A stretch of 64,000 nt of DNA. Source: Kappaphycus alvarezii. Lineage: Eukaryota > Rhodophyta > Florideophyceae > Gigartinales > Solieriaceae. Of the stretch, positions 9,929 to 62,735 are shown piece after piece (the stretch's first letter is position 1; every line of letters begins with the position of its first letter). Made by a program: the position numbers and the translations under genes. The stretch is from assembly GCA_002205965.3 (NCBI GenBank), contig NADL03000653.1, positions 1 to 64,000 on the forward strand, written 5' to 3'. A model generated the notes under the pieces. The model was not told where the DNA came from. It did no database searches and saw only the letters and a program-made list of their open reading frames with translations.

Positions 9929-9930
9929 AA

Positions 9931-35342: not shown

Positions 35343-35344
35343 CA

Positions 35345-38330: not shown

Positions 38331-38695
38331 CTCAGGTCTGAGTCATCCAAAATCTAATTACCGAGAACGGGAAGCCGGAACCTCAATGGTATATGCATAT
38401 GTGCATGTATTCTCTGTTTTATTTCACCGTGTCGGAATTACAATGGGGCAACAAAACACCGGTAAGGGCCAGTCTATTCGTATTTTGTTGTCGTCTCACT
38501 TATCCGAACGGTCTAGTGTCGCTCTCACTGCGTCAGCAGTAATTAATCCGTACGGGTAAGTTAGAATCATTGTAGTGGCTCCCTTAGACTTTTGTTCAAG
38601 TCGTTACCGATCGGTTAGTATTTAGTTTGACTCAGTAGGTCAACTTGTACCCGACTCGGGTACCGAAGCGGTAAATCAATTCATTCTATTCAACA
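38320..38695 (+). repeat. 3' LTR of the truncated copia
   Basis: About 376 bp from TGTCGGAATGA (right after the purine tract) to ...TTCTATTCAACA. The end overlaps the CA of CAGTTGC, the first bases of the right target copy. The 5' partner is missing, so the ends rest on TG...CA and on the junction with repeat X. Confidence 0.65.
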
Positions 38696-41826: not shown

Positions 41827-41859
41827 CGCCCTCCCGCTCAAGACGAACGTCCCGGCTCG

Positions 41860-42522: not shown

Positions 42523-45185
42523 AGAGGATATGGGACCAGTCGATATTCCATATCAGGGGGCAAGCTGTAACCTCTCAGTCGCACATCTTGGTTGTTCTTG
42601 AGAAATACGTAAACTGGACGGATAATGTTCAGATATGTTTGCGACAAGTCTCCGATAGCTACCATTCCATACCTCCCTATAGAGTAATGATATATGACTT
42701 CCACAAACTCTGGACCTGCTTCCGTGAACCTTCCGTTTTGGAATGAGAATAGAACTCTGATCAATAGTCGGAAATCTTCTTGAGGTAGCAATGGTCCGTT
42801 CAACGTACGAAAACATAGGCATATATTAATGTAGAAATGGATGATTACGTGGAGTTCGTAGTAGTCACGCGTAATCGAGATGATCCATTCCCAGGCCCTT
42901 TTTCCTCCCATAGGAATCATTCTATAGTTAAAGATGAGTATGCCTCGTGGTTGCGCATAGTCCTGTGTGAGAAGGAATTCTTCAGGCCTCTGATGGTAAG
43001 GGACCAGACGACGTGCATGGATTGCCCTCCTTGATCTCTTCCCTGAGCTTGAACAGAGCTTATAATGCGGGTGTCTTTCCTCCGTGACGATGCAAGGGTT
43101 CGAGTACTTTGTTTGGAAAGCCGGCCACTTCACAGCCTGTTGCATTGCTTTTCCGTGTGCTACAAGTACTTTAGAGCCGACTGAGAAAGTTTGGACTGGA
43201 GGCTCTTCATCCTTATTTCTTGTCTGTGTTAGCGCGCGGTGTGATCTCCAGCTTTCGGTGGCCAATAGTTCGACCTCTCTACTCTCTTCATCGATAACAT
43301 TTGTTTCCATATCTCTCTGTAACATTCTAGGAGCTCTTCCGTACATTAGCTCAAACGGTGACCGTCCACTTCTTCCTCTTCTTCGCCGATAGCCGTATAA
43401 CACTTTTGGTAAGGCATCTTCCCACTGGATTTCATTCTCGGACATAGTTTTCGATATTGATCGTTTGATGGTTCCAACCATCCTCTCCGCTTTCCCGTTT
43501 GACATAGGAGCATATGCGAGAACTGTCTTTAGCTGAATACCTTTTTCTTCCAAGAAACGAAGCAGTGAAGTTGCAGTAAAACAAAGTGCGTTATCCGAGA
43601 TGATCCTTTTTGGAAGACCAAACGGTTCAATTATTTCTTTTTCGATGAATCTCAGGACCACTTCAGCATTGGCCTCCTCAACTGCAACTGCTATTGGCCA
43701 TCCAGTAAGATGTTCCACCCCTATAAGGAGATATTTGTTTCCGGAAGAGGTTTCCTTGAATGGGCCGGCAAAGTCAATTGAAAAGGTTTCAAAGAGACCG
43801 GAAACTGGAAAGCCTAGAGTTGTCTTATACTTTCGTATTGGCGTGAATTTTTGACAGTTGTCGCAGCTTTTCACGAAGTTATAGACGTCCTTATGGATAC
43901 TGGGCCACCAGAATCTCTCAGTAACGAATTTCTTGGTTGTTTCGAGATCCCAATGCCCTAACTCATCATGAAAAGTCCTCAAGATCTTCATTCTTTCTTT
44001 CAAAGGGGCCACTAGTCGAGGACCGGCTTTCGTGTGTCGGAAGAGTTTCCCATTCCATAGTGTAAAAGCCTTTTGATTCCTACGTACCCAATTTCTGTGT
44101 TCAATATCAACCTTTCTCATTTCTAGTCCATCCAGGAATTTAATTAGTCCGTCAATATTAGCTTCGTACTCGTTATTGTTCGGCACTTGCACCTCGGCAA
44201 CTCCGACGATGTTCTCGGAAGCTTTTTCATTTGGAATCAGTGGATCCCTCAAGCGGGATAGGTAGTCGGCAGGCTGATTATTGCGTCCGGGCCTATACAC
44301 AATTTCAAACCGATATTCTGCGAAAATGTCGAGCCATCGGGCCAAGCGGTGATGTACATCTTTCTTTTGGAATGCTGTCTTAAGTGCCTGGTGATCAGTT
44401 ATCAAGACAAATTTCTCGAGTGATAAAAGGTATACGCGAAACTTTTTCAGTGCGAAGACAACAGCGAGCGCTTCTTTTTCGCAGACTGAGTATCTCCTTT
44501 CCGCATCATTCAGAGTGCGACTTGCGAATTGAACCGGGTGTAGTCTTCCGTTTTCATCTTTTTGGGACAAAACGGCACCCAAAGACCGTTCTGAGGCATC
44601 TGTCTCCACAACAAATGGTCTCTTGAAATCTGGATACATGAGCACTGGGGGGACACATAGCTTATCTTTAAGCTCTTCAAATGCGGTTTGCATTTCCTTG
44701 TTCCATAAAAATTTTCCGTTCTTTGTTGTGCTGGCATGTAACGGTGCTGCAGTCTTGGCGAAATCTTTGATAAATCTCCTGTAATATGAGGCCAGTCCTA
44801 AGAAGCTTCGAACCTCCGTCTTTGAAGCGGGCCTTGGTGCCAACTTGATTTTTTTCGTTTTCTCTGGATCCACTTTAATTCCCTCTTGATCGACGATATG
44901 ACCGAGTAATTGGATAGACGTTTTCGCAAAGAAGCATTTGCTTAACTTAATTTTCAGGCTGTACGCAGCTATTTTCTCCACCACAGTCTTGACATGCGAT
45001 ATGTGCTGATCCAAGGTTTTTGAGAATATCACTACATCATCGATATAAACTCTTGCAAATGGAAGTCCTTTCAAAACCTCGTTCATCATTCTTTGGAATG
45101 TAGCTGGGGCATTCATGAGACCAAAAGGCATCACTTCGAACCTGAATGTACCGGCTTTGCTGGTAAAAGTTGTTTTTCCTTGCAT
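42315..45185 (-). CDS. RT (3' half)-RNase H-integrase-accessory polyprotein, gypsy element 2
   Basis: 956 open codons. The order is RT (FTSKAGTFRFEVMPFGLMNA, YIDD), RNase H (ETDASERSLGAVLSQ, LITDHQALKTAF, PADYLSRL), integrase zinc domain (FHDELGHWD, CDNC) and integrase core with three acidic residues (SIDFAGPF, SDNALCF, NGKAERM). A basic C-terminus (RRAIHARRLVPYHQ) and the first accessory domain (ICLCFRTLNG ... LVPYPLWEPYVAP) follow. The last residues (after MMIR) are out of frame because of the indel at about 42440. The upstream RT part (45131-45780) is in another frame after a one-base loss in TTTTTTCC near 45178. This long frame shows that integrase and accessory region are translated together. 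Confidence 0.95.
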   Translation of the reverse strand: MQGKTTFTSKAGTFRFEVMPFGLMNAPATFQRMMNEVLKGLPFARVYIDDVVIFSKTLDQHISHVKTVVEKIAAYSLKIKLSKCFFAKTSIQLLGHIVDQEGIKVDPEKTKKIKLAPRPASKTEVRSFLGLASYYRRFIKDFAKTAAPLHASTTKNGKFLWNKEMQTAFEELKDKLCVPPVLMYPDFKRPFVVETDASERSLGAVLSQKDENGRLHPVQFASRTLNDAERRYSVCEKEALAVVFALKKFRVYLLSLEKFVLITDHQALKTAFQKKDVHHRLARWLDIFAEYRFEIVYRPGRNNQPADYLSRLRDPLIPNEKASENIVGVAEVQVPNNNEYEANIDGLIKFLDGLEMRKVDIEHRNWVRRNQKAFTLWNGKLFRHTKAGPRLVAPLKERMKILRTFHDELGHWDLETTKKFVTERFWWPSIHKDVYNFVKSCDNCQKFTPIRKYKTTLGFPVSGLFETFSIDFAGPFKETSSGNKYLLIGVEHLTGWPIAVAVEEANAEVVLRFIEKEIIEPFGLPKRIISDNALCFTATSLLRFLEEKGIQLKTVLAYAPMSNGKAERMVGTIKRSISKTMSENEIQWEDALPKVLYGYRRRRGRSGRSPFELMYGRAPRMLQRDMETNVIDEESREVELLATESWRSHRALTQTRNKDEEPPVQTFSVGSKVLVAHGKAMQQAVKWPAFQTKYSNPCIVTEERHPHYKLCSSSGKRSRRAIHARRLVPYHQRPEEFLLTQDYAQPRGILIFNYRMIPMGGKRAWEWIISITRDYYELHVIIHFYINICLCFRTLNGPLLPQEDFRLLIRVLFSFQNGRFTEAGPEFVEVIYHYSIGRYGMVAIGDLSQTYLNIIRPVYVFLKNNQDVRLRGYSLPPDMEYRLVPYPLWEPYVAPLRNTTSAEDQDPPEAVMMIRLDHQVIGADHRRGQGVGSSEEDRQEDRLKHRLVSQGETMHP
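42501..42824 (-). other. Accessory domain, first copy (element 2)
   Basis: Same residues as in element 1 (ICLCFRTLNG to EPYVAP), in the same frame as integrase. Confidence 0.78.
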
Positions 45186-46651
45186 TTTTCATCCAATGGA
45201 ATCTGCCAATAACCAGTGTAAAGATCAATTGAGGTGAAGTATCTCCCGTCCTTCAAGTCCTCGAGGATTTCCTCCATATTCGGAATCGGAAATCGATCGG
45301 GTATCATTCTCTGGTTCAGTTGTCGGTAATCGACGCAAAAACGCAGCTTTCCATCCTTCTTTGGTGCGACCACAACTGGAAATGACCATGGGGATGAAAC
45401 TGGCCGAATGATATCATTTTCCAGCATACTTGTAACATTCTCTGAGATAAATTGGTCATATTTTGGCGGTTGACGTCTAGGCCTGTGGTAAATTGGTTAG
45501 TATCGGTAAGTTCAAATGAGTGAGTGACCGGTACACTTGCTTGTCTTAAATCGGAAACGCTCCATGCAATTACTTCGGAAGATGTTAACATGTCGGATAT
45601 TATCATTGAGGCGGGGGCTGGAAGGTGCTGTACTTTTTCTTGAATTTCTCCAATTTGGCGCTGGTCCTTTTCTTGATCCTCACCCTCCAAATTTTGAAGG
45701 ACCTCTTCCGGCGTGCTCACATCTTCAGATATGGAATTCGATATATTCTTGTTTTCCGTGCAATTGTAATCTTCTTTCATGCCCGAATTCCGTCCTTTGA
45801 TTCGATATTATCGCAAAAAGAAACACATTCAGGTGTCAAACCTACCCTAGAATTCCATTCTTCATCTGTTTCAAACCCAGAATCATAATCGTCCCATGTC
45901 ATGTTCATTGTCCCCCGAGCGTACCCTTTCTCACTTCCGAAAGTGTTAGTTGGTTCGGAATCTTCGCTGTCATAGCTAGAAGTGAAATCTTCACTGTCCG
46001 TCTCTCTTAGATCTTCCGGATGTGTGCTTTTGTCGAAATCCAGGGGCATCTTCACGTTTCTGCCGTCAACATTAACTGAAACGATTTGGTTGCCCAAGTC
46101 AATGCAGGTCCCTAGTCTTTCCATGGTAGGACAGCCAATGATTGCATCGAAAGGGAGCTCCGGCATGACGAGAAAGTCTACATCAACTTTAGAGTCCCCA
46201 AAGAACACGGAAACCTTGTTAACAGTGCCCATGCATTTTGAGACGGTTCCATCCGCCACAGTTATTCTTCGAGTAGTTGGAATAATTTCGAGACCTAAAT
46301 CTGTCACCAAAGTTTCTGAGATAAGGTTTGGAACAGCGCCCGAATCGAAAAGAGCTTGGGTTTCATTCCCAATACTTTGACTGGTACTAGTTTAAGACGT
46401 CTTGGTGCTGTCGAGGCCGATTGAAGAAACAGTTTCTTACCCTTAGCGGACTTATTAGACCTGATAATTTTTTTGAGTTCTTTTCTCGCATCCTCTGCGT
46501 CGCCCCTCAAAAGTTGACCAAACGTTATCCCAGTTGGGGCCGATGCAAGCTCAGCCACCAAATTGTACTTCTTCACATATTCTAGTACGTCCTTCGGGAT
46601 ACTCTTAAATTTCTTACTCTTTCTCGTCTTCTTGGCCGAAGTGTTTCCCAC
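45131..46651 (-). pseudogene. Protease and RT start, gypsy element 2 (frameshifted)
   Basis: The protease (AVPNLIS region upstream of 46310, then FDAIIGCP), linker (46304-46651: KYNLVAELASAPTGITFGQL) and first RT part (SPWSFPVVVAPKKDGKLRFC) are all present but lie in four frames. The stretch 45480-45780 differs from element 1 at several bases (KVQHLPAPASMIISDMLTSS against KVQHLPAAASLKISDMLASS). It is a small diverged patch in an otherwise near-identical body. Confidence 0.85.
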
Positions 46652-46872
46652 CCTGGAACAACTTGATCAAGCCTCTTGGTTCGAGGAGGTACAGGTGCTG
46701 GGATATGCTCCAGCATTCCATAATCTAGCCTAGGTTTTTTCGACAAAACGTTCCCTTCCCCATCCCTTTTTGTCACATTAACTTGACTGATTTCTTCAGC
46801 GATGGATACATTACCGGCATCCGCCAACCTTTGATCCTTCTGTTTTGTAAGATTTTCATCTCTGGTCCTGAC

Positions 46873-47780
46873 TCACTCCTGCGTCCGATAAATTTGCTCT
46901 TCTGTTGTCTTTAGACCAGCAGTTACTTTCATGATGCCCGTAACGACCGCACTTTCCACAACGAGTGTTTCTATGTGGATTATCAGGACACCTATTTGCA
47001 AAGTGTCCAGGCTTGTGACAGTAGGAACAGACTTCTGCGGCCTTGGGGCCCCAGACTGGTTCTTCTTAATGGTAAGAGTAAGGCTTTCCAACTGCGAGGT
47101 TATCATGTCAAGTCGATTATCGAATCGGGTTTCCAACCTTTCTTCCAAGTTTTTGACATCGCTCCTGACTGATTCCAATGCTGCTGCGCTAGTAGCTGGC
47201 CTTTGATAATTCTTTTCAGGATGTACGATCGCATAGATGTACGGGTTTCCCTCGGTATTTCACTTAGTGACTGAAACGTCTCCGAATTTTTGACAAATTC
47301 TACTATGGTACCCTTCAGTTCATTAAAAGTGTGAGGGCCCTTGATGAGGAGGAAATCGGAGAGCCGCTTATCCCCCATCGCCGCCTTACGCAGCATTCCG
47401 TACTTGGCTTGGGCGTTGAACCCAGCCTTTTCATAGAGATCACACAAGTATACCAATGAGCTTAACAAATCGTCGAAGTTGAGCCGGGCCTCTATGGCGG
47501 TACGAATCATCTCATCTGGTTCTACCTGCTTAGCATATTCTTTCACAAGCCACTCACATACCTCACCGAAGTTACGCCCATTCCCGTTAAGAGACCACCC
47601 GTTGATAAACTTGGCCTTATATTTGTGCTTTGCGTCACCATGAAGATAGGCGAAGATACTTTCGGCCTTCTCTTCATCGCTCTTCTCACGCATCACAACG
47701 TTGACATATGTATAGAGAAACTCCTCAACGTCTTCATTCTTGCCCCCTGTGAACGTTATACGAGCAGCGTTGAGATCCAT
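46873..47780 (-). pseudogene. Gag, gypsy element 2 (frameshift near the middle)
   Basis: Starts MDLNAARITFTGGKNEDVEE at 47780 (90 bp after the LTR), has the capsid-like helices and reads to about 47230, where one base is missing (GATCGCATAG; element 1 GATCGGCATAG). The remainder with the zinc knuckles is in other frames (46873-47178). Function as for element 1. Confidence 0.9.
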
Positions 47781-47849
47781 GATTACAGAAAAGAAATCCC
47801 CTCGAATGGTTCCCTAAGACTGCTCAACTCGAATACCTCGGGTGCAACC

Positions 47850-47867
47850 CCCTCCACAAGAGTACCA
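47850..47867 (-). other. Candidate primer-binding site, gypsy element 2
   Basis: TGGTACTCTTGTGGAGGG two bases after the LTR end, as in element 1. Confidence 0.55.
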
Positions 47868-48083
47868 AATGATAGGGGTAAATCGTCGGGAGAAGAGATA
47901 CTTAGAACCAACTACCCCAAGACGGAGGTGTTGCGAGCGACAAAAGTGCTACCGTGGTATAGTTGAACAAATAAAAAGGAGTGTATATGGGAGAGAGTTG
48001 AGAGGGCTACAAGCAAGTATAAAAGGGGCAGGGTCTACCACTGATGCTCTGCGACCAGCTTAGGAAAAAGTTTTCTAGGGTCT

Positions 48084-48141
48084 GAAGTTGACTCTCAACT
48101 TCCTACTACTCGGAGCTTGACCTGAAGTTGTCTGCCAACTT
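48084..48141 (-). other. Pair of inverted repeats in the shared R-U5 region
   Basis: GAAGTTGA-CTC-TCAACTTC (48084-48102) and AAGTTG-TCTGC-CAACTT (48125-48141) lie close together. Both are kept in every LTR of types A and B in the window, including the diverged solo copies (196-890 and 59483-61054). They are predicted to form hairpins in the element RNA. Confidence 0.75.
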
Positions 48142-48175
48142 GCTTGACCTCTCAAGGAGGAAGCACTTTACTCAG

Positions 48176-48184
48176 CTTATATAG
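48176..48184 (-). promoter_or_regulatory. TATA box of the gypsy LTR (element 2, 5' LTR)
   Basis: CTATATAAG on minus, at the junction of the variable U3 and the conserved R-U5. It is present in every copy of both LTR types. It is the likely promoter of the genomic RNA. Confidence 0.65.
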
Positions 48185-48586
48185 ACCTTTCGGCTAATCC
48201 TAAAGTCTCAATCAAACATACTAAATACCATAAAACGCATTCACGGGAATCGTGTGAACCAGAGAGACCATTAGAAGATATTTCCTCAAGGTAAATATCT
48301 AGGTGCCATACCCATGCCAGCCACCCATCGGCCAGGGGTGGGAATTGATGTGGCCATTATATAGACCTTTCAGAGTCACTCGTAGTATCACCCACAACCT
48401 AGAACTGTACTGACATCCACTATGACAGCGTGTCCTAAAATAAAAAATCAACCGATGAATTTGCCACACTCACCCAAATTAAAAATATCTTGCAAATTCA
48501 AAAACTGTAAAAATATCTTCCCAGTTCCAATACTGTATACAATTATGGTCCTCATCTAAATTTTTCGTGTGCGAATTTGCACATCA

Positions 48587-49301
48587 ACAATATTTAACAT
48601 CCAAACTTTTGACCACTTGAGAAACACCCAGGTATAGGATGTAAAATCGTTGCGCACCTCCGGGATGCTCGAAAGTTCGCGCTGCGGAAAGCCAGCCTCT
48701 GCACTATGAAAGTCGTTGGTTGTCGAAGACATTCTGAGCCAGCTACAACTAGGTGTAAGCATTCCTGGTGCGCCGCGACTTTCTGTTATGATTTCCCTCA
48801 AGACTTTCCAAGTGCCGAAGCCGTCTTCCCCCAACCCGAACTTCTGGTGCGTTCCTGATGACGCATAACGATTGAAGCGGAATTGTTTTCACTGGCAGGG
48901 TCCATTCCAACCTAAGCGAACCTTCCTTCGCAAGTACCAAGTTACCGGACCATTTCACCATCACATTTCTTTGAAAAATCCGTTGCCACGCTTTCAAACT
49001 GAGTCGCCACACCCGCTGTCCGCCGGCTGAATCATAACTTCGCCCCGGGCTCTGATCGCATGTCCCCTCGGCTGCTTCACCCTCTGGCTAACACCAGAGG
49101 TGACGCCAGAGGCAGGGTTTACGGGATCTCTGTGCTCACTTCCGTTATACGGCGACTAGCTAATGGACCTCCCTGACGCCACACAATCCCGCTTATTCTC
49201 CTCTGGACGCATCTCCCGATCCAACCACGTCCAGAAAGATCCAGCCTATCGCAATCGGCGGCGTACGGCGCCTGGTGACGAAAGTTCTCTTGCCCAAGCA
49301 T
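48587..49301. other. Spacer between gypsy elements 2 and 3
   Basis: Holds the second copy of the 120-bp repeat (48898-49017) and a perfect hairpin (CCTCTGG-CTAACA-CCAGAGG, about 49081-49100). A 60-codon minus frame ends at the LTR of element 3. No gene recognised. Confidence 0.4.
48898..49017 (+). repeat. Dispersed 120-bp repeat, copy 2
   Basis: Partner of 20150-20275. Confidence 0.6.
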
Positions 49302-49732
49302 TGTAAATCGTCGGAGAAGAGATACTTAGAACCAACTACCCCAAGACGGAGGTGTTGCGAGCGACAAAAGTGCTACCGTGTATAGTTGAACAAATAAAAA
49401 GCAGTGTATATGGAGAGAGTTGAGAGGGCTACAAGCAAGTATAAAAGGGCAGCGTCTACCACTGATTCTCTGCGACTTGCTTAGGAAAAAGTTTTCTTGG
49501 GTTTGAAGTTGACTCTCAACTTCCTACTACTCGGAGCTTGACCTGAAGTTGTCTGCCAACTTGCTTGACCTCTCCATGAGGAAGCAGTTTACTCAGCTTA
49601 TATAGACTTTTGGCTACCTGTAAAGTCCGAACAAAACTACAGAAGATACCAAGAAATGCATAAAAATACTTTGTGTGGACAATATGCTCTAAGCAAAAGA
49701 TACTTAAGAAACTAACAATTAATTTGGTCCTC

Positions 49733-50367
49733 TTATTTCCCATTCTCTAAATCAGATCCAAACAACTCCTCTAAAATATCCATGCTGTCCAAGCAGTCCC
49801 CACAAATATCTGCGAATGGCTCACAGCTCTCTATTCCCCCTGGGAGATATCTAGATTACTAAATATATCTCCATCCGGTTCCATCGTGGGCACAACTTGA
49901 TCCATACTCTCCATTCCAGGCCCCACCAGTCCAACACTTTCCATTCCCCTTTCCCTCATCCTCCTCCTCTCCTCCTCCTCCTCCTCCTCCTCCTCTCTCC
50001 TCCTCCTCCTCCTCCCCATCTCCTCTTCATCCTCTTCCTCATCCTCTCATCCTCCTCATCCTCCTCATCCTCCTCATCCTCCTCATCTCCTCATCCTTCT
50101 CCCGAGCCTCGTGCACTAGCTCAGGGGCTAACCATTCCTCGAAGGACTCCCCGCTCTCCTCCTCGACCTTCTCAGCCTCTCCCTCACTTACCTCCCTCGC
50201 TCTTCTTCTATGAAGAGGCGGCGAACGAACTCGATGATTTGCTTCTTTGTTTGCCGCCGGATGTAGTCGTCGGCATCGGTTGGCCCGTAGGCGGCGAGAC
50301 GAAGGCCATTGATGGGACGGGAAGGGCGGTTTTTGGAAATGGGGACAGAGGGGCGAAGGTTGTTCAT
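49733..50367 (-). pseudogene. U3-encoded acidic protein, copy 2 (3' LTR of element 3)
   Basis: ATG 50367, MNNLRPSVPISKNRPSRPIN, then GPTDADDYIRRQTKKQIIEF and VRRLFIEEE. A one-base loss at about 50202 shifts the frame before VSEGEAEKVEEESGESFEEW and LAPELVHEAREKDEE. The acidic (GAG/GAT)n tract is shorter than in the other LTR and changes frame again. The tail GMESVGLVGPGMESMDQVVP is followed by ISQGE and a stop, where diverged copies read on through ISQEEIE to DILEELFGSDLE. TATA-like TATTTAAAC lies about 107 bp upstream (50473-50482). Confidence 0.65.
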
Positions 50368-50472
50368 TTTGATAGACGTCGGGGAACGGAGGCAATGTAG
50401 GGTGTTTTGGGTGTTGGGGGGAGAGAGGTGATGAGTAAAATGATCGGGGCATTTGGAACTTAGAATAAAGGG

Positions 50473-50482
50473 GTTTAAATAG
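50473..50482 (-). promoter_or_regulatory. TATA-like box upstream of the U3 reading frame (3' LTR, element 3)
   Basis: CTATTTAAAC on minus, about 107 bp before the ATG. The equivalent box occurs in all four type-B LTR copies. Confidence 0.55.
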
Positions 50483-50822
50483 GCTCCCGGGCAGGTTCTA
50501 TAGATAGGAATAGGTAAAATAAATCTGCAAGGGATTTTGTAGTATTGCATTTGCGCCCTTTTTCTCAAAAAAACGAATTTGGAGGAGGAGGTAAGCAAAA
50601 AGGGAAAAAGAACTTGATTCGGGATCGATTCAGAGGGGTAGATACAGTATAAAAATATCTAGATAAAATGGAAGTAAATTTGGGGAGGACCGCGGTAATG
50701 ATAAGCGAGGTTCAGGGAGGACGAGGAAGGACCGGAACTATAAGCAAATTTGGACAAGGAGAGGTAGTACAGTAAACTATAGGCCTGTAGATGACGGCGA
50801 AAAAAAAAATCTGCGCCTAACA

Positions 50823-50830
50823 CCCCCCGG
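50823..50830 (-). other. Polypurine tract of gypsy element 3
   Basis: CCGGGGGG on minus directly before the type-B LTR start TGTTAGGCGC. It differs from the type-A tract (GAGCGGGAGGGCG), so the exchange of U3 included the tract. Confidence 0.65.
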
Positions 50831-50883
50831 ACTTAGGTCGAACGTCCCGTCTCGTTCTCAATGCTCTTGTTGTTCTGGGAGTT

Positions 50884-53107
50884 CTATCCATTCATCAGGG
50901 AGAGTATAGGGTTCACTATAAGGATATGGTAGTAGCTCATTTCCAATATGATGAGAGAGTGTGTACCGATGACCGGCTCATCTCCTTGGTCAAGAGTTTC
51001 GTAGATTCGGCGTATGGTTTCATAGTGTTCTCTAATGAGCTCCTCCCGTTTCACTTCTCCAAACCTTCCAAATGTGAGGTAATAAACGTAGTATGCAAAC
51101 TTTTCTGGCAACGGGTCCAGAAACGGGTATCTGAAGGAGAAAAAAACTCGCAACATAAGGACTGAGTCCTCACGAGTAAGGTGCGCCCCGTGAATGGTCT
51201 GGAAGCACATGCAAATACTAATGCAAAAAAGGAAATTACTTCTGCTTCTCGGGTCCTCTGTCATTTCGCGAAGCCAACGTCTAATTGGTAGCCGTCCAAT
51301 AATTAAGGATGCATAGTTTCCCCCTGGGAGACTAGGCGGTGTTTGAGGCGATCTTCTTGGCGATCTTCCTCGCTGCTCCCGACGCCTTGCCCTCTTCGAT
51401 GATCCGCCCCGATCACTTGATGGTCCAGCTCGTATCATCATCACGGCCTCGGGAGGATCCTGGTCTTCGGCTGAGGTTGTGTTTCTGAGCGGAGCAACGT
51501 AAGGTTCCCATAGAGGATATGGGACCAGTCGATATTCCATATCAGGGGGCAAGCTGTAACCTCTCAGTCGCACATCTTGGTTGTTCTTAAGAAATACGTA
51601 AACCGGACGGATAATGTTCAGATATGTTTGCGACAAGTCTCCGATAGCTACCATTCCATACCTTCCTATAGAGTAATGATATATGACTTCCACAAACTCT
51701 GGACCTGCTTCCGTGAACCTTCCGTTTTGGAATGAGAATAGAATTCTGATCAATAGTCGGAAATCTTCTTGAGGTAGCAATGGTCCGTTCAACGTACGAA
51801 AACATAGGCATATATTAATGTAGAAATGGACGATTACGTGGAGTTCGTAGTAGTCACGCGTAATCGAGATGATCCATTCCCAGGCCCTTTTTCCTCCCAT
51901 AGGAATCATTCTATAGTTAAAGATGAGTATGCCCCGTGGTTGCGCATAGTCCTGTGTGAGAAGGAATTCTTCAGGCCTCTGATGGTAAGGGACTAGACGA
52001 CGTGCATGGATGGCCCTCCTTGATCTCTTCCCTGAGCTTGAACATAGCTTATAGTGCGGGTGTCTTTCCTCCGTGACGACGCAAGGATTCGAGTACTTTG
52101 TTTGGAAGGCCGGCCACTTCACAGCCTGCTGCATTGCTTTCCATGTACTACAAGTACTTTAGAGCCGACTGGAAAGGTTTGGACTGGAGGCTCTTCATTC
52201 TTATTTCTTGTCTGTGTTAGCGCGCGGTGTGATCTCCAGCCTTCAGTGGCCAGTAGTTCGACTTCTCTACTCTCTTCATCGATAATATTTGTTTCCATGT
52301 CTCTCTGTAACATTCTAGGAGCCCTTCCGTACATTAGCTCGAATGGTGACCGTCCGCTTCTTCCTCTTCTTCGACGATAGCCGTATAACACTTTTGGTAA
52401 GGCATCTTCCCACTGGATTTCATTCTCCGACATAGTTTTCGATATTGCTCGTTTGATGGTTCCAACCATCCTCTCCGCTTTACCGTTTGACATAGGAGCG
52501 TATGCGAGAACTGTCTTCAGCTGAATCCCTTTCTCTTCCAAAAACGAAGCAGTGAAGTTGCAGTAAAACAAAGGGCGTTATCTGAGATGATCCTTTTTGG
52601 AAGACCAAACGGTTCAATTATTTCTTTTTCGATGAATCTCAGGACCACCTCAGCATTGGCCTCCTCAACTGCAACTGCTATTGGCCATCCAGTAAGATGT
52701 TCCACCCCTATAAGGAGGTATTTGTTTCCGGAAGAGGTTTCCTTGAATGGGCCGGCAAAGTCAATTGAGAAGGTTTCAAAGAGAGCGGAAACTGGGAAGC
52801 TTAGGGTTGTCTTATACTTTCGTATCGGAGTGAATTTTTGACAGTTGTCACAGCTTTTCACGAAATTATAGACGTCCTTATGGATACTGGGCCACCAGAA
52901 TCTCTCCGTAATGAATTTTTTGGTTGTTTCGAGATCCCAATGCCCTAACTCATCATGAAAAGTCCTCAAGATCTTGATTCTTTCTTTCAAAGGGGCCACT
53001 AGTCGAGGACCGGCTTTTGTGTGTCGGAAGAGTTTCCCATTCCACAATGTAAAGGCCTTTTGGTTCCTGCGTACCCAATTTCTGTGTTCGAGATCAACCT
53101 TTCTCAT
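50884..53107 (-). pseudogene. Integrase and accessory domains, gypsy element 3 (frameshifted)
   Basis: Three overlapping frames: 52517-53107 (zinc domain FHDELGHWD and CDNC, first Asp FSIDFAGPF, second Asp SDNALCF), 52119-52571 (Glu in NGKAERM, then the region up to the basic C-terminus) and 50884-52134. The last has the basic C-terminus (RRAIHARRLVPYHQ) and both accessory domains (ICLCFRTLNG ... EPYVAP and ICMCFQTIHG ...) in one frame. Near 51250 six bases of the type-A sequence are missing (EDPREAEV becomes EDPRSRSN), and the C-terminal part shifts after DQGDEPVI. Confidence 0.88.
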
Positions 53108-53126
53108 TTCTAGTCCATCAAGGAAT

Positions 53127-54371
53127 TTAATAAGTCCGTGAATATAGCTTCGTACTCGTTATCGATCGGCACTTGAACTTCGGCAACTCCGACGATGTCT
53201 CGGAAGCTTTTTCATTTGGAATCAATGGATCCCTCAAGCGGGATAGGTAATCGGCAGGCTGATTATTGCGTCCGGGCCTATACACAATTTCAAACCGATA
53301 TTCTGCGAAAATGTCGAGCCATCGGGCCAAGCGGTGATGTACATCTTTCTTTTGGAATGCTGTCTTAAGTGCCTGGTGATCAGTTATCAAGACAAATTTC
53401 TCGAGTGATAAAAGGTAAACACGAAACTTTTTCAGTGCGAAGACGACAGCTAGCGCTTCTTTCTCGCAGACTGAGTATCTCTTTTCCGCATCATTCAGAG
53501 TGCGACTTGCGAATTGAACAGGGTGTAGTCTTCCGTTTTCGTCTTTTTGGGACAAAATGGCACCCAAAGACCGTTCTGAGGCATCTGTCTCCACAACGAA
53601 TGGTCTCTTGAAATCTGGTACATGAGCACTGGGGGACACATAGCTTATCTTTAAGCTCCTCAAATGCAGTCTGCATTTCCTTGTTCCAGTAAAATTTTCC
53701 GTTCTTCGTAGTGCTGGCATGTAACGGTGCTGCAGTTTTGGCGAAATCTTTGATAAATCTTCTGTAATATGAGGCCAGTCCTAAGAAGCTTCGAACCTCC
53801 GTCTTTGAAGCGGGCCTGGTGCCAACTTGATTTTTTTCGTTTTCTCTGGATCCACTTTAATTCCCTCTTGATCGACGATATGACCGAGTAATTGGATAGA
53901 CGTTTTCGCAAAGAAGCATTTGCTTAACTTAATTTTCAGGCTGTACGCATCTATTCTCTCCACCACAGTCTTGACATGCGATATGTGCTGATCCAAGGTT
54001 TTTGAGAATATCACTACATCATCGATATAAACTCTTGCAAATGGAAGTCCTTTCAAAACCTCGTTCATCATTCTTTGGAATGTAGCTGGGGCATTCATGA
54101 GACCAAAAGGCATCACTTCGAACCTGAATGTACCGGCTTTGCTGGTAAAAGTTGTTATTTCCTTACATTTTTCATCTAATGGAATCTGCCAATAACCAGT
54201 GTAAAGATCAATTGAGGTGAAGTATCTCCCGTCCTTCAAGTCCTCGAGGATCTCTCCATGTTCGGAATCGGAAATCGATCGGGTATCATTCTCTGGTTCA
54301 GTTGTCGGTAATCGACGCAAAAACGCAGCTTTCCATCCTTCTTTGGTGCGACCACAACTGGAAATGACCAT
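53127..54371 (-). pseudogene. RT 3' half and RNase H, gypsy element 3 (frameshifted)
   Basis: Frames 53781-54371 (SIDLYTGYWQIPLDEKC, MPFGLMNAPATFQ, YIDD) and 53127-53720 (ETDASERSLGAILSQ, LITDHQALKTAF, PADYLSRL). They are joined by one-base losses at about 53816 and 53620. Confidence 0.9.
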
Positions 54372-55948
54372 GGGGATGAAACTGGCCGAATAATATCATT
54401 TTCCAGCATACTTGTAACATTCTCTGAGATAAATTGGTCATATTTTGGCGGTTGACGTCTAGGCCTGTGGTAAATTGGTTGAGTATCGGTAAGTTCAAAT
54501 GAGTGAGTGACCGGTACACTTGCTTGTCTTAAATCTGATACACTCCATGCAATTACTTCGGAAGATGCTAACATGTCGGATATTTTCAGTGAGGCGGCGG
54601 CGGGAAGGTGCTGCACTTTTCCTTGGATTTCTGCCATTTGGCGCCCTTTTTCTTCTTGATTCTCAACCTCAATATTTTGAAGGACCTTTTCCGGCGTGCT
54701 CACATCTTCAGATATGGAATCCGATATATTCCTGTTTTCCTTGCAATTGTAATCTTCTTTCATGCTCCGAATTCCGTCCTTTGATTCGATATTATCGCAA
54801 AAAGAAACACATTCAGGTGTCACACCTACCCTAGAATTCCAGTCTTCATCTGTTTCAAACCCAGAATCATAATCATCCCATGCCATGTTCAGTATCCCCC
54901 GAGCGTACCCTTCTCCACTTCCGAAAGTGTTAGTTGGTTCGAAATCTTCGCTGTCATAGCTAGAAGTGAAATCTTCACTGTCCGTTTCTTTCAAATCTAC
55001 CGGATGTGTGCTTTTGTCGAAATCCAGGGGCATCTTCACGGTTCTGCCGTCAACATTAACTGAAACGATTTGGTTGCCCAAGTCAATGCAGGTCCCTAGT
55101 CTTTCCATGGTAGGGCAGCCAATGATTGCATCGAAAGGGAGATCAGGCATGACAAGAAAGTCTAAATCAACTTTAGAGTCCCCAAAGAACACGGAAACCT
55201 TGTCAACAGTGCCCATGCATTTTGATACGGTTCCATCCGCCACAGTTATTCTTCGAGTAGTTGGAATAATTTCAAGACCTAGATCTGTCACCAAAGTTTC
55301 TGAAATAAGGTTTGGAACAGCGCCCGAATCGAAAAGAGCTTGGGTTTGCATTCCCAATACTTTGACTGGTACTAGTTTAAGACGTCTTGGTGCTGTCGAG
55401 GCCGATTGAAGAAACAGTTTCTTACCCTTAGCGGACTTATTAGACCTGATAATTTTTTTGAGTTCTTTCCTCGCGTCCTCTGCGTCGCCCCTCAAAAGTT
55501 GACCAAACGTTATCCCAGTTGGGGCTGATGCAAGCTCAGCCACCAAATTGTACTTCTTCACATATTCTAGTACGTCCTTTGGGATATTCTTAAATTTCTT
55601 ACTCTTTTTCGTCTTCTTGGCCGGAGTGACTCCAACTCCTGGAACAACTTGATCAGACCTCTTGGTTCGAGGAGGTACAGGTGCTGGGATATGTTCCAGC
55701 ATTCCATAATCTAGCCTAGGTTTCTTCGATAAAATGTTCCCTTCCCCATCCCTTTTTGTCACATTGACTTGACTGATTTCTTCAGCGATGGATACGTTAC
55801 CGGCATCCGTCAACTTGTGATCCTTTCTGTTTTGTAAGATTTTCATCTCTGGTCCTGACTCGCTCCTTGCGTCCGATAAATTTGCTTTTCTGTTGTCTTT
55901 AGACCAGCAGTTACTTTCATGATGCCCATATCGCCGCACTTTCCACAA
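54236..55948 (-). CDS. Zinc knuckle-protease-RT start, gypsy element 3
   Basis: 570 open codons in one frame: second zinc knuckle end (RYGHHESNCWSKDN), linker (TKRDGEGNILSKKPRLDYGM, YNLVAELASAPTGITFGQL), protease (ALFDSGAVPNLIS, FDAIIGCP), spacer (SWVEE-type acidic stretch, DYDSGFETDEDWNSRV), and RT start (SPWSFPVVVAPKKDGKLRFC). It shows that gag end, protease and RT share one frame, which the other copies have lost by indels. Confidence 0.92.
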   Translation of the reverse strand: MWKVRRYGHHESNCWSKDNRKANLSDARSESGPEMKILQNRKDHKLTDAGNVSIAEEISQVNVTKRDGEGNILSKKPRLDYGMLEHIPAPVPPRTKRSDQVVPGVGVTPAKKTKKSKKFKNIPKDVLEYVKKYNLVAELASAPTGITFGQLLRGDAEDARKELKKIIRSNKSAKGKKLFLQSASTAPRRLKLVPVKVLGMQTQALFDSGAVPNLISETLVTDLGLEIIPTTRRITVADGTVSKCMGTVDKVSVFFGDSKVDLDFLVMPDLPFDAIIGCPTMERLGTCIDLGNQIVSVNVDGRTVKMPLDFDKSTHPVDLKETDSEDFTSSYDSEDFEPTNTFGSGEGYARGILNMAWDDYDSGFETDEDWNSRVGVTPECVSFCDNIESKDGIRSMKEDYNCKENRNISDSISEDVSTPEKVLQNIEVENQEEKGRQMAEIQGKVQHLPAAASLKISDMLASSEVIAWSVSDLRQASVPVTHSFELTDTQPIYHRPRRQPPKYDQFISENVTSMLENDIIRPVSSPWSFPVVVAPKKDGKLRFCVDYRQLNQRMIPDRFPIPNMERSSRT

Positions 55949-56768
55949 CGAGTGTTTCTATGTGGATTATCAGGACACCTATTTGCAAAGTGTCCAGGCT
56001 TGTGACAGTAGGAACAGACTTCTGCGGCCTTGGGGCCCCAGACTGGTTCTTCTTAATGGTAAGAGTAAGGCTTTCCAACTGCGAGGTTATCATGTCAAGT
56101 CGATTATCGAATCGGGTTTCCAACCTTTCTTCCAAGTTTTTGACATCGCTCCTGACTGATTCCAATGCTGCTGCGCTAGTCGCTGGCCTTTGATAATTCT
56201 TTTCAGGATGTACGATAGACACCGATGTGCGGGTTTCCCTCGGTACCTCACTCAGTGACTGAAACGTCTCCGAATTTTTGACAAATTCTACTATGGTACC
56301 CTTCAGTTCATTAAAAGTGTGAGGGCCCTTGATGAGGAGGAAATCGGAGAGCCGCTTATCCCCCATCGCCGCCTTACGCAGCATTCCGTACTTGGCTTGG
56401 GCGTTGAACCCAGCCTTTTCATAGAGATCACACAAGTATACCAATGAGCTTAACAAATCGTCGAAGTTGAGCCGGGCCTCTATGGCGGTACGAATCATCT
56501 CATCTGGTTCTACCTCCTTAGCATATTCTTTCACAAGCCACTCACATACCTCACCGAAGTTACGCCCATTCCCGTTAAGAGACCACCCGTTGATAAACTT
56601 GGCCTTATATTTGTGCTTTGCGTCACCATGAAGATAGGCGAAGATACTTTCGGCCTTCTCTTCATCGCTCTTCTCACGCATCACAACGTTGACATATGTA
56701 TAGAGAAACTCCTCAACGTCTTCATTCTTGCCCCCTGTGAACGTTATACGAGCAGCGTTGAGATCCAT
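55917..56768 (-). pseudogene. Gag, gypsy element 3 (frameshift at the zinc knuckles)
   Basis: MDLNAARITFTGGKNEDVEE start at 56768, the longest intact gag of the three (about 250 residues before the break). One base is missing near 56030 (CTTGGGGCC for CTTGGGGGCC in element 1), which shifts both knuckles out of frame. Another lies near 55930. Confidence 0.9.
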
Positions 56769-56835
56769 GATTACAGAAAAGAAATCCCTCGAATGGTTCC
56801 CTAAGACTGCTCAACTCGAATACCTCGGGTGCAAC

Positions 56836-56853
56836 CCCTCCACAAGAGTACCA
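56836..56853 (-). other. Candidate primer-binding site, gypsy element 3
   Basis: TGGTACTCTTGTGGAGGG, as in elements 1 and 2. Confidence 0.55.
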
Positions 56854-57296
56854 AATGATAGGGGTAAATCGTCGGGAGAAGAGATACTTAGAACCAACTA
56901 CCCCAAGACGGAGGTGTTGCGAGCGACAAAAGTGCTACCGTGGTATAGTTGAACAAATAAAAAGCAGTGTATATGGGAGAGAGTTGAGAGGGCTACAAGC
57001 AAGTATAAAAGGGGCAGCGTCTACCACTGATCTCTGCGACTTGCTTAGGAAAAAGTTTTCTTGGGTTTGAAGTTGACTCTCAACTTCCTACTACTCGGAG
57101 CTTGACCTGAAGTTGTCTGCCAACTTGCTTGACCTCTCCATGAGGAAGCAGTTTACTCAGCTTATATAGACTTTTGGCTACCTGTAAAGTCCGAACAAAA
57201 CTACAGAAGATACCAAGAAATGCATAAAAATACTTTGTGTGGACAATATGCTCTAAGCAAAAGATACTTAAGAAACTAACAATTAATTTGGTCCTC

Positions 57297-57394
57297 TTAT
57301 TTCCCATTCTCTAAATCAGATCCAAACAACTCCTCTAAAATATCCATGCTGTCCAAGCAGTCCCCACAAATATCTGCGAATGGCTCACAGCTCT
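57297..57394 (-). other. Stranded tail of the U3 reading frame
   Basis: Read in the shifted frame this gives FADICGDCLDSMDILEELFG then SDLENGK and a stop at 57297-57299. It matches the in-frame tails of copies 1 (GDCLGGMDILGELFGSDIED) and 4 (GGCLGSTDILEELFGSDLED), so it was coding until recently. Confidence 0.7.
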
Positions 57395-57952
57395 CTATTC
57401 CCCCTGGGAGATATCTAGATTACTAAATATATCTCCATCCGGTTCCATCGTGGGCACAACTTGATCCATACTCTCCATTCCAGGCCCCACCAGTCCAACA
57501 CTTTCCATTCCCCCTGTTCCCTCATCCTCCTCCTCCTCCTCCTCCTCCTCCTCCTCCTCCTCCTCCTCCTCCTCCCCATACTCCCTCCTCCTCCTCCCAT
57601 ACTCCTCTTCATCCTCTTCCTCATCCTCCTCATCCTCCTCATCCTCCTCATCCTCCTCATCCTCCTCATCCTCCTCATCCTTCTCCCGAGCCTCGTGCAC
57701 TAGCTCAGGGGCTAACCATTCCTCGAAGGACTCCCCGCTCTCCTCCTCGACCTTCTCAGCCTCTCCCTCACTTACCTCCCTCGCTTCTTCTTCTATGAAG
57801 AGGCGGCGAACGAACTCGATGATTTGCTTCTTTGTTTGCCGCCGGATGTAGTCGTCGGCATCGGTTGGCCCGTAGGCGGCGAGACGAAGGCCATTGATGG
57901 GACGGGAAGGGCGGTTTTTGGAAATGGGGACAGAGGGGCGAAGGTTGTTCAT
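57395..57952 (-). CDS. U3-encoded acidic protein, copy 3 (5' LTR of element 3), most intact
   Basis: ATG 57952 is chosen because it is the one conserved in the other copies. 185 codons: MNNLRPSVPISKNRPSRPIN, GPTDADDYIRRQTKKQIIEF, VRRLFIEEEAREVSEGEAEK, ESFEEWLAPELVHEAREKDE, then very long Asp/Glu runs (GAG/GAT repeats), then GGMESVGLVGPGMESMDQVV, EPDGDIFSNLDISQGE and a stop. In diverged copies the frame continues to DILEELFGSDLE; here the bases are still present (57297-57394) but one A has been lost in CAGGGGGAATAG. The protein has a basic N-terminus, a helix-like stretch, an acidic middle and a hydrophobic-acidic tail. I know no homologue. It lies upstream of the genomic-RNA TATA box, so it would be read from its own promoter or from the 3' end of full-length RNA. 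Confidence 0.7.
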   Translation of the reverse strand: MNNLRPSVPISKNRPSRPINGLRLAAYGPTDADDYIRRQTKKQIIEFVRRLFIEEEAREVSEGEAEKVEEESGESFEEWLAPELVHEAREKDEEDEEDEEDEEDEEDEEDEEEDEEEYGRRRREYGEEEEEEEEEEEEEEEEDEGTGGMESVGLVGPGMESMDQVVPTMEPDGDIFSNLDISQGE

Positions 57953-58059
57953 TTTGATAGACGTCTGGGAACGGGAGGCAATGTAGGGTGTTTTGGGTGT
58001 GTGGGGGAGAGAGGTGATGAGTAAAATGATCGGGGGCATTTGGAACTTAGAATAAAGGG

Positions 58060-58069
58060 GTTTAAATAG
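58060..58069 (-). promoter_or_regulatory. TATA-like box upstream of the U3 reading frame (5' LTR, element 3)
   Basis: CCTATTTAAA on minus, about 110 bp before the ATG at 57952. Confidence 0.55.
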
Positions 58070-58410
58070 GCTCCCGGGCAGGTTCTATAGATTAGGAATA
58101 GGTAAAATAAATCTGCAAGGGATTTTGTAGTATTGCATTTGCGCCCTTTTTCTCAAAAAAACGAATTTGGAGGAGGAGGTAAGCAAAAAGGGAAAAAGAA
58201 CTTGATTCGGGATCGAATCAGAGGGGTGATACAGTATAAAAATATCTAGATAAAATGGAAGTAAATTTGGGGAGGACCGCGGTAATAATAAGCGAGGTTC
58301 AGGGAGGACGAGGAAGGACCGGAACTATAAGCAAATTTGGACAAGGAGAGGTAGTACAGTAAACTATAGGCCTGTAGATGACGGCGACAAAAAAAAATCT
58401 GCGCCTAACA

Positions 58411-59482: not shown

Positions 59483-59922
59483 TGATAGGGGTAAATCGTC
59501 GGGAGAGGAACTACTCAGAACCAAATACCCCTGGAGTGAGATTTTGCAAGCGACTAAAGAGCTACCGTGGTATAGTTGAGCGATCAAAAAGGTTCTTTTG
59601 AGGACGACAGTTCAGAGGGCTAAAAGCAAGCATAGAAGTGGACGGTTCTGCCACTATTTTGTGTGGCCAGCGTAAGAACGAAGGTTCTTCGGTCTGAAGT
59701 TGACTCTCAACTTCCTACTACTCGGGACTTGGCTTGAACTTGTCTGTCAACTTGCTTGACCTCTCCAAGAGGAAGCAGTTTAGTCAGCTTATATAGGCTT
59801 ATGGCTACTTCTAAAGTCCGAACAATAATACAAAAGATACCAGTAAATGCACAAAAATACTTTGTGTGGATGATATACTCTGAACAAATATACTTAAGAA
59901 ACGAACAATCGATATGGTCCTC

Positions 59923-60451
59923 CTATTTCCCATCCTCTAGATCAGACCCAAACAACTCCTCCAAAATATCCGTGCTACCCAAGCAGCCCCCCAAAAAAAT
60001 CCGCGAGTGTCTCATTATCTCTATTTCCTCTTGAGAGATATCTAAACCACTAAAGATGCCCCCATCCGGTTCCGGCGTCGGGACCACTTGTTCTATATTG
60101 TCCAGCACCCGCCCCACAATTCCGACACTTTCCATGCCTCCCTCCCCCTCATCCTCCTCGTCCTCCTCTTCAGCCTCCTCTTCAGCCTCATTCTCGTACA
60201 CCAATTCCGGGGCTGCCCACTCCTCAAAAGTCTCCCCAGCTCCCTTCTCGACTTCCCTCTCCTGACCCTCACCGACATTATCCGCCTCATTCTAGATGAG
60301 CAAGCGACGAACGAACTAGATCACCTTCTTCTTTTTTTTCGTCGTATATGCTCATCGGTATCAGTAGGGCCGAAAGGGAGTAGGAGAATGGCGTTTAAGG
60401 GACGAGGGTTGCTATTTTAGGAAATGACTTTGGAGGGCATAGTTTGTCCAT
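59923..60451 (-). pseudogene. U3-encoded acidic protein, copy 4 (solo LTR)
   Basis: ATG 60451 (MDKLCPPKSFPKI). After a stop the block FGPTDTDEHIRRKKKKVI, then FVRRLLI, corresponds to GPTDADDYIRRQTKKQII / FVRRLFI. From 60204 an open 93-codon frame carries YENEAEEEAEEEDEEDEGEG, GMESVGIVGRVLDNIEQVVP, EPDGGIFSGLDISQEEIEIM, then GSTDILEELFGSDLEDGK and the stop at 59923. This is the best-preserved tail and shows that the frame originally ran on past ISQEE. TATA-like CTATTTAAT is at 60558-60566, about 110 bp upstream of the ATG. Confidence 0.65.
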
Positions 60452-60557
60452 TTTGGTGGCTCTAAGGAGTTTCAGGCTATTGAGGGTGCTTTGAATGGAT
60501 AGAGGGGAGGATGGCGAGAAGAATGACTGGGGAGGTTTGAAACTTGGAATAAAGGGG

Positions 60558-60566
60558 ATTAAATAG
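60558..60566 (-). promoter_or_regulatory. TATA-like box upstream of the U3 reading frame (solo LTR)
   Basis: CTATTTAAT on minus, at the same distance from the ATG as in element 3. Confidence 0.5.
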
Positions 60567-61054
60567 GCACCCGAGGGCGCATTCTATAGATTTGGAATAG
60601 GTAAAATAAATCTACAGGGTAATTTGTAGTACTGCGTTTGCGCCCCTTTCCTCAAAAAAATGAATTTGGAGAAGGATTTTAGCGAAAAGGGAAAAAACCT
60701 TGATTCGGGATCGATTTAGAGGGGTAGATACAGTAAAAAAATATCGAGATAAAATGGAAGTGAATTTGGAGAGTACCACGGTAATGATAAGCAAGGGTCA
60801 GGAAGGAGAGATACTCTCCCGAGAAGGTGCTTAGAGTGAGAAACGGCGAGAAAGGACCAGAAGTACAAGCAATTTTGAACAGAGGTAGGTATTAAAGGGA
60901 GGAAAATTGGTTTGGTTTGCTGCGAGTAATGGAAAGGTTGGGAGTCCTCTGTATTTTTAATCAAACCATTGGCACTAGCATAGGTACTAAAGTAAATAAA
61001 AGTCGGTAGATAACGACAGCAGAAAGATCCGTTCCGATTCGGGCGCGCCTAATA

Positions 61055-61599
61055 CCAAGGTTTGGAACAGCTAATGCTGGGCTTGCCCGTCGCGCGTTAG
61101 ATTTCTTGCACAGAGCGCCGATTCCTTCGAATTTCTGTACAGTGTGTCAGACGAATACCCTTAGATTTGGCGAATAACGGCGCTGGGCGCATCGAAAGGG
61201 TTTCGTGTTCGGCTTCAGCTTCTCAGAAGAGGGCCGTACCATTGCGGAATGTTCTCGACTGAGCTTAATTCTGAAACAGTAGCGGTGCTTTTCAGACAAC
61301 GACCGTAACTTTCGAGCTCCACTCCTGCTATTGCGTTCCTTGTAGAATTCTGGACGGCTTTAGTCACAGCTTTGCTGATATGCTGTTCTGAGTCGACTTC
61401 GAATTCGGCTTGAAGGCATTCTGGTGGCTCCACCCGGTCTTCATCAGCACCTTGTTAACTCAAGCCTCTGAAGGATTTCGAGGAGGTGCGGGCAATTTTT
61501 GCTATCAACTCCTTTTCTAACATACCTTCGATCTCAGGTCCTACCTTTTGAGGTGCCTGTACAGATAAACCTCGTTAATCGACTGCTAACTACTCCGTA
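61055..61599. other. Spacer, nothing recognised
   Basis: A 72-codon minus frame (61215-61433) has no family resemblance. The right end may already belong to the non-LTR element. Confidence 0.3.
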
Positions 61600-62735
61600 T
61601 GCTCGGATAGCAGGTCTCCTCGCTCTCGCTTACGACAATTTCCCCTGAGACCTGGACTTACCCTTGGAACTCCAATTAGAGGAGCTGCTTGAGGCCATCC
61701 CCCGATTGGACACAACGACCTCTCGCTCCTTACAACGCGCTATTACTGAGCATCTGCACCAATCACACCTGGAGAAGTTGCGCCATTAGTTCCCCGAACA
61801 CCACTAAAACCATCACTGTCGCGCCTTCTCTCGGTGCAGTCCTCCGCCGCCTCAGCCCCTTACTCCACTATGCCCTCCCATCCAATGGCCTTTATACCCT
61901 AGGAGAGATCTGGCGTACGATGGTCCTTTCACTCCTCGGAGCTCCGGTCTTCCCCGGCTCGGATCCCTGCCCCACATGCCTCTCCAGCCACTCCGACGTT
62001 CTGCCTATCCTTAACGAGCTCGGACATCACGCGGCTATATGCAACAGTGGTATCGGGGCGGTAAGCCGGCACGACCGCCTGCCCGACCTTTTATACCACG
62101 AAATCTCGCACCCTTCCATTTCCATTTCCGTCAGACGGGAGCATGTCCTCGCAACCGATCTGCTCAAGAGCGCCAATGAGTGGCGAGCTCTCGACTTAGT
62201 CATTGACGATTCCCTGTTCGCCCCATCTCCCATGGCCTTGAATGTCACCATTGTAAGCCCCCACTCTGCCCCATACCGCAACTTAGCTGACAATGGTGCG
62301 TCTACTCTTGACCTTACCGAGAAGAAGAAAGTTCTTGCCGAGAAGAAGAAAGTTCTATACCATTCTGCGGTTTTCGACCAAGAAGGCTTAGAACTCATTC
62401 CCCTCGCTATTGGCATCTATGGACAGATTGGAAAATGTGACCTCAAGGATCTCCAAGACATTAGCAACTTTATGGCTGCGAGGCGTGGGAGACACTGTCA
62501 TTCTGAGTTTCATTCCCTACGTACACGTGTATCATCGCTTGTCCTCCAGGACACGGCTGTTATGACGAATCTTTGCAAAATACGTATCACTAGCGACAGC
62601 TCTGAGCAATACTGCCTACGGATGGGCCAGATAGTCTCTGTCCCCACTTCACAACTTTATATTAAAAGGTCACCCTTCCTCCCAATTCTCCAGTTACTAA
62701 TGCATTTTTTTGAGTGGGAATTAATCTACATGTAA
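61600..62735 (+). pseudogene. Non-LTR family 2, C-terminal fragment C (longest)
   Basis: An out-of-frame left part has LQRAITEHLHQSHLEKLRH. The open frame from 61689 then gives LGAVLRRLSPLLHYALPSNG, LGEIWRTMVLSLLGAPVFPG, a zinc motif (CPTCLSSH, ELGHHAAIC), AVSRHDRLPDLLYHEIS, WRALDLVIDDSLFAPSPMAL, NVTIVSPHSAPYRN, KKKVLYHSAVFDQ, LAIGIYGQIG and NFMAARRGRHCHSEFHSL. It matches fragments A and B. The LD.VIDD and VTIVSPH stretches fit the restriction-like endonuclease. A 24-bp direct repeat (GAGAAGAAGAAAGTTCT, twice near 62320-62357) adds VLAEKKK. No RT core. Confidence 0.72.

Follow-up and report, generated by a model that had tools for sequence, protein, structure and literature searches.

The U3 region of one type of long terminal repeat (LTR) of a Ty3/gypsy retrotransposon family in Kappaphycus alvarezii almost certainly contains a protein-coding gene, either at present or at least during the period when the family spread. 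A preliminary description of the window, by which is meant the whole stretch of 64,000 nucleotides analysed here (contig NADL03000653.1, positions 1 to 64,000), had proposed such a gene in U3, and this proposal is strongly supported, with dN/dS between subfamilies clearly below 1. The gene is read in the sense direction of the element, lies inside the LTR rather than in the internal region and has evolved under purifying selection while the family spread. The genome assembly searched consists of 336,021,096 bases in 884 contigs. The features of the window that are necessary for the argument are as follows.

49303 to 58410, minus strand: E3, Ty3/gypsy element with type-B (gene-bearing) LTRs, with an LTR pair, the family domains PR, RT, RNase H and IN, and LTR ends that match other copies
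3172 to 10652, minus strand: E1, element with type-A LTRs without the frame (comparison)
41106 to 48589, minus strand: E2, element with type-A LTRs without the frame (comparison)
56856 to 58410, minus strand: c3, 5' LTR of E3, type B, TG...CA
49303 to 50822, minus strand: c2, 3' LTR of E3, with a related frame at 49733-50367 that contains several frame breaks
1572 to 2718, minus strand: c1, older type-B LTR, upstream limit approximate; its frame runs from the ATG at 2635 to 2021 and contains stops; TATTTAA at 2712-2718
59483 to 61056, minus strand: c4, older type-B LTR that lacks an internal region; its frame runs from the ATG at 60451 to 59923 and contains stops and breaks; TATTTAA at 60559-60565
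57395 to 57952, minus strand: U3 frame of c3, 185 codons and stop, with the N block (57785-57952), an acidic run and the C1 block (57404-57511)
57520 to 57686, minus strand: 3-bp repeat array encoding the Glu/Asp run of c3
57297 to 57395, minus strand: conserved tail block of c3, DICGDCLDSMDILEELFGSDLENGK, in another frame than the body; joined to the body in some other genomic copies
58062 to 58068, minus strand: TATTTAA box of c3, putative promoter of the U3 gene
57162 to 57168, minus strand: TATATAA box, probable promoter of the genomic RNA, common to the type-B copies of the window and type A; R would lie downstream

The window contains three Ty3/gypsy elements (E1, E2 and E3), and the sense strand of all three is the minus strand of the window. 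Pfam detects an aspartyl protease at 54236-55957 and RT, RNase H and integrase in the gypsy order at 42315-45188, while the gag frame has no Pfam match. The LTRs end in TG...CA, a G-rich tract precedes the 3' LTRs and a constant stretch follows the 5' LTR. Five-bp target duplications flank the type-B elements on other contigs in all three element pairs that are readable on both sides, and a target duplication was not found for two copies with foreign sequence on both sides (L026 and L077). At 49290-49303 the 3' LTR of E3 breaks off before its last bases and gives way to other sequence, so that the target duplication is unreadable there. The pol frame continues past integrase into a long C-terminal extension (3924-5723, 41860-43500 and 50884-52158, minus strand), which seemingly consists of two copies of one module (ICLCFRTLNGP.../ICMCFQTIHGA...); its parts at 41860-42552 and 50884-52158 have no Pfam match. 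A search of viral_contigs with a stretch of RT gave five pattern matches, none of which was confirmed. The window also contains a Copia-like element (35270-38342; RVT_2 and integrase core by Pfam), a 300-bp repeat at 19141, 35018 and 38694 (98%) that may belong to the LTRs of the Copia-like element, a WD40-like gene fragment with an internal duplication (30633-31890, minus strand), and two long plus-strand frames (33263-34300 and 61680-62735) that look related (HHAIVCSTGAG/HHAAICNSGIG; NVSVISPHS/NVTIVSPHS), the former without a Pfam match.

The two LTR types differ in length, type A (E1 and E2) being approximately 720 bp and type B (E3) approximately 1.5 kb long. The length of c3 is 1555 bp, and that of type-B LTRs elsewhere is 1484-1532 bp (20 copies measured). 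The internal regions are 98.9% identical between E1 and E2 and 96.3-96.7% identical between types A and B. The stretch of approximately 325 bp that begins just upstream of the TATATAA box and reaches the end of U5 is 94.3-96.3% identical between types A and B; for most of the other U3 sequence, blastn finds no match between the two types. The U3 of type A contains no frame of this kind. Its similarity to c1 stops 18 bp short of the c1 frame, on the downstream side, and the best-scored 40 of 1310 type-A candidates are all 100% identical over 381 bp, so that type A looks like the youngest LTR type. Because type A lacks the frame and looks youngest, the gene is not needed in cis; type A either borrows the protein in trans or does without it. 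Unrelated U3 regions on nearly identical internal regions amount to an exchange of U3, and such mosaic LTRs may have arisen when A and B genomes packaged together were reverse transcribed. The synonymous divergence between E1 and E3 is 0.166 at 5714-6199, as compared with 0.040-0.077 in the other gag-pol frames, and this excess suggests mosaic ancestry. An older relative of the type-A LTR, approximately 79-82% identical in pieces, is located at 244-867.

In the sense direction, c3 starts at 58410 and is followed by the TATTTAA box (58068-58062), the ATG (57952), the stop ending at 57395, the tail block (to 57297), the TATATAA box (57168-57162) and the LTR end (56856). The preliminary description placed related frames in the U3 of four LTR copies, and they are located where it placed them. 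It assigned them to the minus strand of U3, which is correct for the window, but this strand is the sense strand of the element. The four copies do not represent independent evidence, because c2 and c3 form the LTR pair of a single element. The shared protein plan it described is visible in c1, c3 and c4, which have in common ATG, GPT..D, RR, VRR, the acidic run, ES.G.VG, QVVPT.EPDG, DISQ and DIL.ELFGSD, but no copy in the window is continuous from the ATG through the tail. The frame of c1 meets a stop after the N block, that of c2 has several breaks and that of c4 has both stops and breaks, so that one continuous frame per copy cannot be maintained. Likewise, c3 is open for 185 codons (57952 to 57395), and its tail, DILEELFGSDLE, is in another frame. 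The N block of c3 (56 codons) is basic with a pI of 10.1, and the body of the protein is acidic, with a net charge of about -54. The longest ATG frame of the c3 LTR, which includes an upstream ATG, encodes 214 amino acids, a length that none of 1000 dinucleotide shuffles reaches (maximum 170). This test is weak because the 3-bp repeat lies inside the frame, and the codon tests, which leave the repeat out, provide the stronger evidence.

For the codon tests in the window, c1, c3 and c4 were compared pairwise over three non-repeat blocks (124 codons), with Fisher's test for significance. The dN/dS values are 0.25 for c1-c3 (p 1.2e-8) and 0.24 for c3-c4 (p 4.5e-9). The value for c1-c4 is 0.51 (p 0.0045) and is weaker, C1 plus tail alone giving p 0.28. 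In the same pairs the two other sense frames give 0.71-1.83, and as a yardstick the dN/dS values of E1-E3 are 0.26 for gag and 0.17 for all gag-pol frames. The differences at codon positions 1, 2 and 3 of the three blocks are 36/31/57 for c1-c3, 31/21/51 for c3-c4 and 41/30/49 for c1-c4, the last of which is not significant. The preliminary description located a third-position bias in the tail. The bias exists in the three blocks together, but not in the tail of c3-c4 alone (7/7/6).

The analysis was extended to the genome with the frames of c3, c1 and c4 as queries, and 40 of 2684, 3566 and 3384 first-look candidates, respectively, were scored. The aligned sample consists of 93 copies (40 of the 40 scored c1-like, 32 of 40 c3-like and 21 of 40 c4-like). 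Across these 93 copies, the net divergence between groups at positions 1, 2 and 3 is 0.241/0.205/0.382 for c1-c3, 0.154/0.097/0.320 for c3-c4 and 0.190/0.153/0.253 for c1-c4. The leader 5' of the ATG, cut into mock codons, exhibits no position-3 excess. Among all six reading frames, pN/pS is lowest (0.31-0.52) and stops are fewest in the sense frame. The antisense frame that shares its wobble position has a pN/pS of 0.47-0.67, but contains 2.4-3.1 stops per copy on average, and the other four frames have a pN/pS of 0.98-1.57. A dN/dS near 1 across many copies had been named beforehand as the outcome that would speak against the gene, and the gene survives this test. Within groups, variants found in a single copy are evenly distributed over the codon positions (86/88/83 for c1-like and 87/84/87 for c4-like copies), whereas variants found in at least three copies are biased towards third positions (46/37/74, p 8e-4, and 14/10/32, p 6e-4, respectively). 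The young c3-like group has too few variants for this comparison (4/2/10 single and 0/0/2 in at least three copies). Even private variants together with third-position-biased shared variants indicate selection in the propagating lineage and neutral decay of copies once inserted. This result fits a protein that was selected while the element multiplied and whose insertions then decayed neutrally.

Intact copies exist in the genome. In the unselected sample, the frame is open from the ATG to the tail anchor (the 19th of 32 tail codons) in 2 of 40 c1-like, 2 of 32 c3-like and none of 21 c4-like copies. When shifts between blocks are ignored, the three blocks are stop-free in 1 of 40, 32 of 32 and 13 of 21 copies, respectively. 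When the N block is searched at the protein level, the best 150 of 5582 candidates match at 96-100% identity and all 150 are stop-free in this block; 23 of these best-scored 150 matches have open frames of at least 240 amino acids. Ten copies were chosen for their long frames and are therefore a biased set. Eight of them read from the ATG through the tail end (179-228 amino acids); of the other two, one ends inside the tail and the other short of it. Two of the eight intact ones agree in length and in their last 75 residues. The two LTRs of E3 are 97.7% identical, with 5 mismatches and 25 gap openings, which may reflect run-length noise of the assembly or slippage. Given this mixture of few mismatches and many gaps, some of the breaks in the frames of young copies are perhaps assembly noise, and caution is needed when frame breaks are interpreted in young repeats of this genome.

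A TATTTAA box precedes the ATG in the window copies, as the preliminary description had noted, but its distance of 78-110 bp requires revision: the box starts 83 bp before the ATG in c1 and 114-116 bp before it in c2-c4. An exact TATTTAA is present within 220 bp 5' of the ATG in 26 of 40 c1-like, 31 of 32 c3-like and 16 of 21 c4-like copies, mostly at 78-86 bp in c1-like copies and at 109-118 bp in c3- and c4-like copies. Inside the c1-like group the box is kept no better than other words. The leaders of c1 and c3 differ at 50 of 95 aligned sites, and the presence of the box in all three groups despite this strong divergence is the argument for TATTTAA as a putative promoter of the gene. The downstream TATATAA box is probably the promoter of the genomic RNA.

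The protein has no detectable relatives. Against approximately 5.8 billion proteins, no match was obtained with the whole frame at E 0.001 (8000 candidates scored), with the N block at E 0.001 (8 candidates) or with the C block at E 0.1 (2 candidates), in a search that needs shared 5-residue words, so that distant relatives may escape it. No PDB sequence matches the N block, and Pfam searches with the N blocks of c1 and c3 and with the C part of c4 are likewise negative. Two Pfam hits of the whole c3 frame were rejected. The hit to Na_trans_assoc (E 2.5e-5, 25.1 bits, cut-off 35.6) is attributed to composition, since the match covers the acidic part and the N block has none; the weak hit to Cwf_Cwc_15 (E 0.0048) is also taken as composition. 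The AlphaFold2 model has a pLDDT of 51 and no usable fold, with one likely long helix predicted at residues 32-59.

We propose, with moderate confidence, that the U3 protein is a trans-acting nuclear accessory regulator of its element. In this reading, the type-B LTR carries an extra sense gene in U3, flanked by two TATA-like boxes. A short mRNA would be transcribed from the upstream box and would encode a protein of approximately 180-230 residues, with a basic start containing the likely helix, a long Glu/Asp run and a conserved acidic-hydrophobic tail, while the downstream box would drive the genomic RNA. The short mRNA would end at the poly(A) site of the same LTR, so that the gene could be expressed from a 3' LTR alone, or even from a solo LTR. 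By analogy with the accessory regulators of complex retroviruses, the protein would most likely act in the nucleus, in trans, on LTR transcription or silencing. The feature that speaks for a regulator is the composition, namely the basic N block, the acidic body and the strongly negative net charge. The proposal in its fullest form is a self-contained regulator gene that lies wholly in the LTR, is present twice per element, can be expressed from a solo LTR, exerts control in trans that includes a dependent younger lineage without the frame, and is independent of sag of mouse mammary tumour virus (MMTV). This combination is rather unlikely to hold in every part.

The same evidence of selection would equally be expected from a real U3 gene with another job, such as export of the genomic RNA, binding of chromatin or histones that steers integration, particle assembly or an action on the host. 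Nothing in the sequence singles out transcription, and long acidic runs occur also in histone-binding proteins. A precedent is CERV, an extra protein of a gypsy-class element, which is described as required for genomic RNA export (PMC10309623). On the other side, no domain or homologue points to any such job, and another function is considered a serious but less probable explanation.

A formerly useful gene that is being shed, selected in the past, dropped by the youngest lineage and surviving as decaying relics with no present role, is improbable. The uniformity of the frame-less type-A U3, the end of its similarity to c1 shortly beyond the c1 frame and the near identity of the A and B internal regions agree with such a loss. 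However, the sampled c3-like copies and the best N-block matches are stop-free throughout the blocks compared, intact young copies exist, and type A could still use the protein in trans. The frame is very unlikely to be anything other than a gene, although LTRs are ordinarily non-coding according to PMC4667437, the repeat alone yields long frames and one antisense frame also has a low pN/pS: a chance frame or repeat artefact is ruled out by the codon-position signal in non-repeat blocks, cis-regulatory DNA or RNA structure is countered by the position-3 excess in the frame and not in the leader together with the six-frame pN/pS, which rules out cis-regulatory DNA alone, and an antisense gene is ruled out by its stops.

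The U3 gene can be compared with several known systems. Foamy virus Tas, HIV Nef and HTLV HBZ are regulatory or accessory genes that either overlap U3 or are served by a promoter of their own; these genes only overlap the LTR or are antisense, and the general protein searches gave no similarity to them. The nearest parallel is sag of MMTV and related betaretroviruses. According to PMC4667437, sag lies mostly within U3 and is served by several promoters, one of them in the U3 of the 3' LTR, and most genomic relatives of sag sit in solo LTRs (490 of 527 contigs). The likeness to sag by position drawn in the preliminary description is apt: here too a sense gene lies within U3, and it is under purifying selection. 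Unlike sag, the present gene resides in an element that is Ty3/gypsy by its domains and encodes a different, mostly acidic protein without relatives found; membership of the sag family is rejected, no homologous superantigen being found in the protein collection or Pfam. The additional ORFs of plant LTR retrotransposons (Grande gene23, RIRE2 and Retand) are described as part of the internal region, where most are situated between pol and the 3' LTR, these three in antisense, and the product of gene23 as nuclear, from a gene with its own promoter (PMC7264820; PMC11963269). Like them, the present gene is an extra frame kept in many family copies and has no known relatives. Unlike them, it is sense and lies inside the LTR, outside the internal region that characterises additional ORFs, and is thus present in two copies per element. 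It therefore resembles sag in position and gene23 in the lack of relatives, and is classed with neither. CERV of Cer1 (Caenorhabditis elegans) is likewise an extra protein without known relatives that serves its element, but its gene is described as internal and expressed from a spliced mRNA (PMC10309623). Varied third ORFs are also reported for elements of bdelloid rotifers (PMC5408684).

In the literature searched, no case of a coding LTR was recognised among retrotransposons, the coding case described being MMTV-like sag. LTRs are usually treated as non-coding control regions. The contrast between type-A and type-B LTRs on nearly identical internal regions makes the role of the gene directly testable. 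A selected gene in a Ty3/gypsy LTR means that a solo LTR, normally annotated as an inert repeat, can be a gene, and that proteins are hidden by repeat masking where LTRs bear genes.
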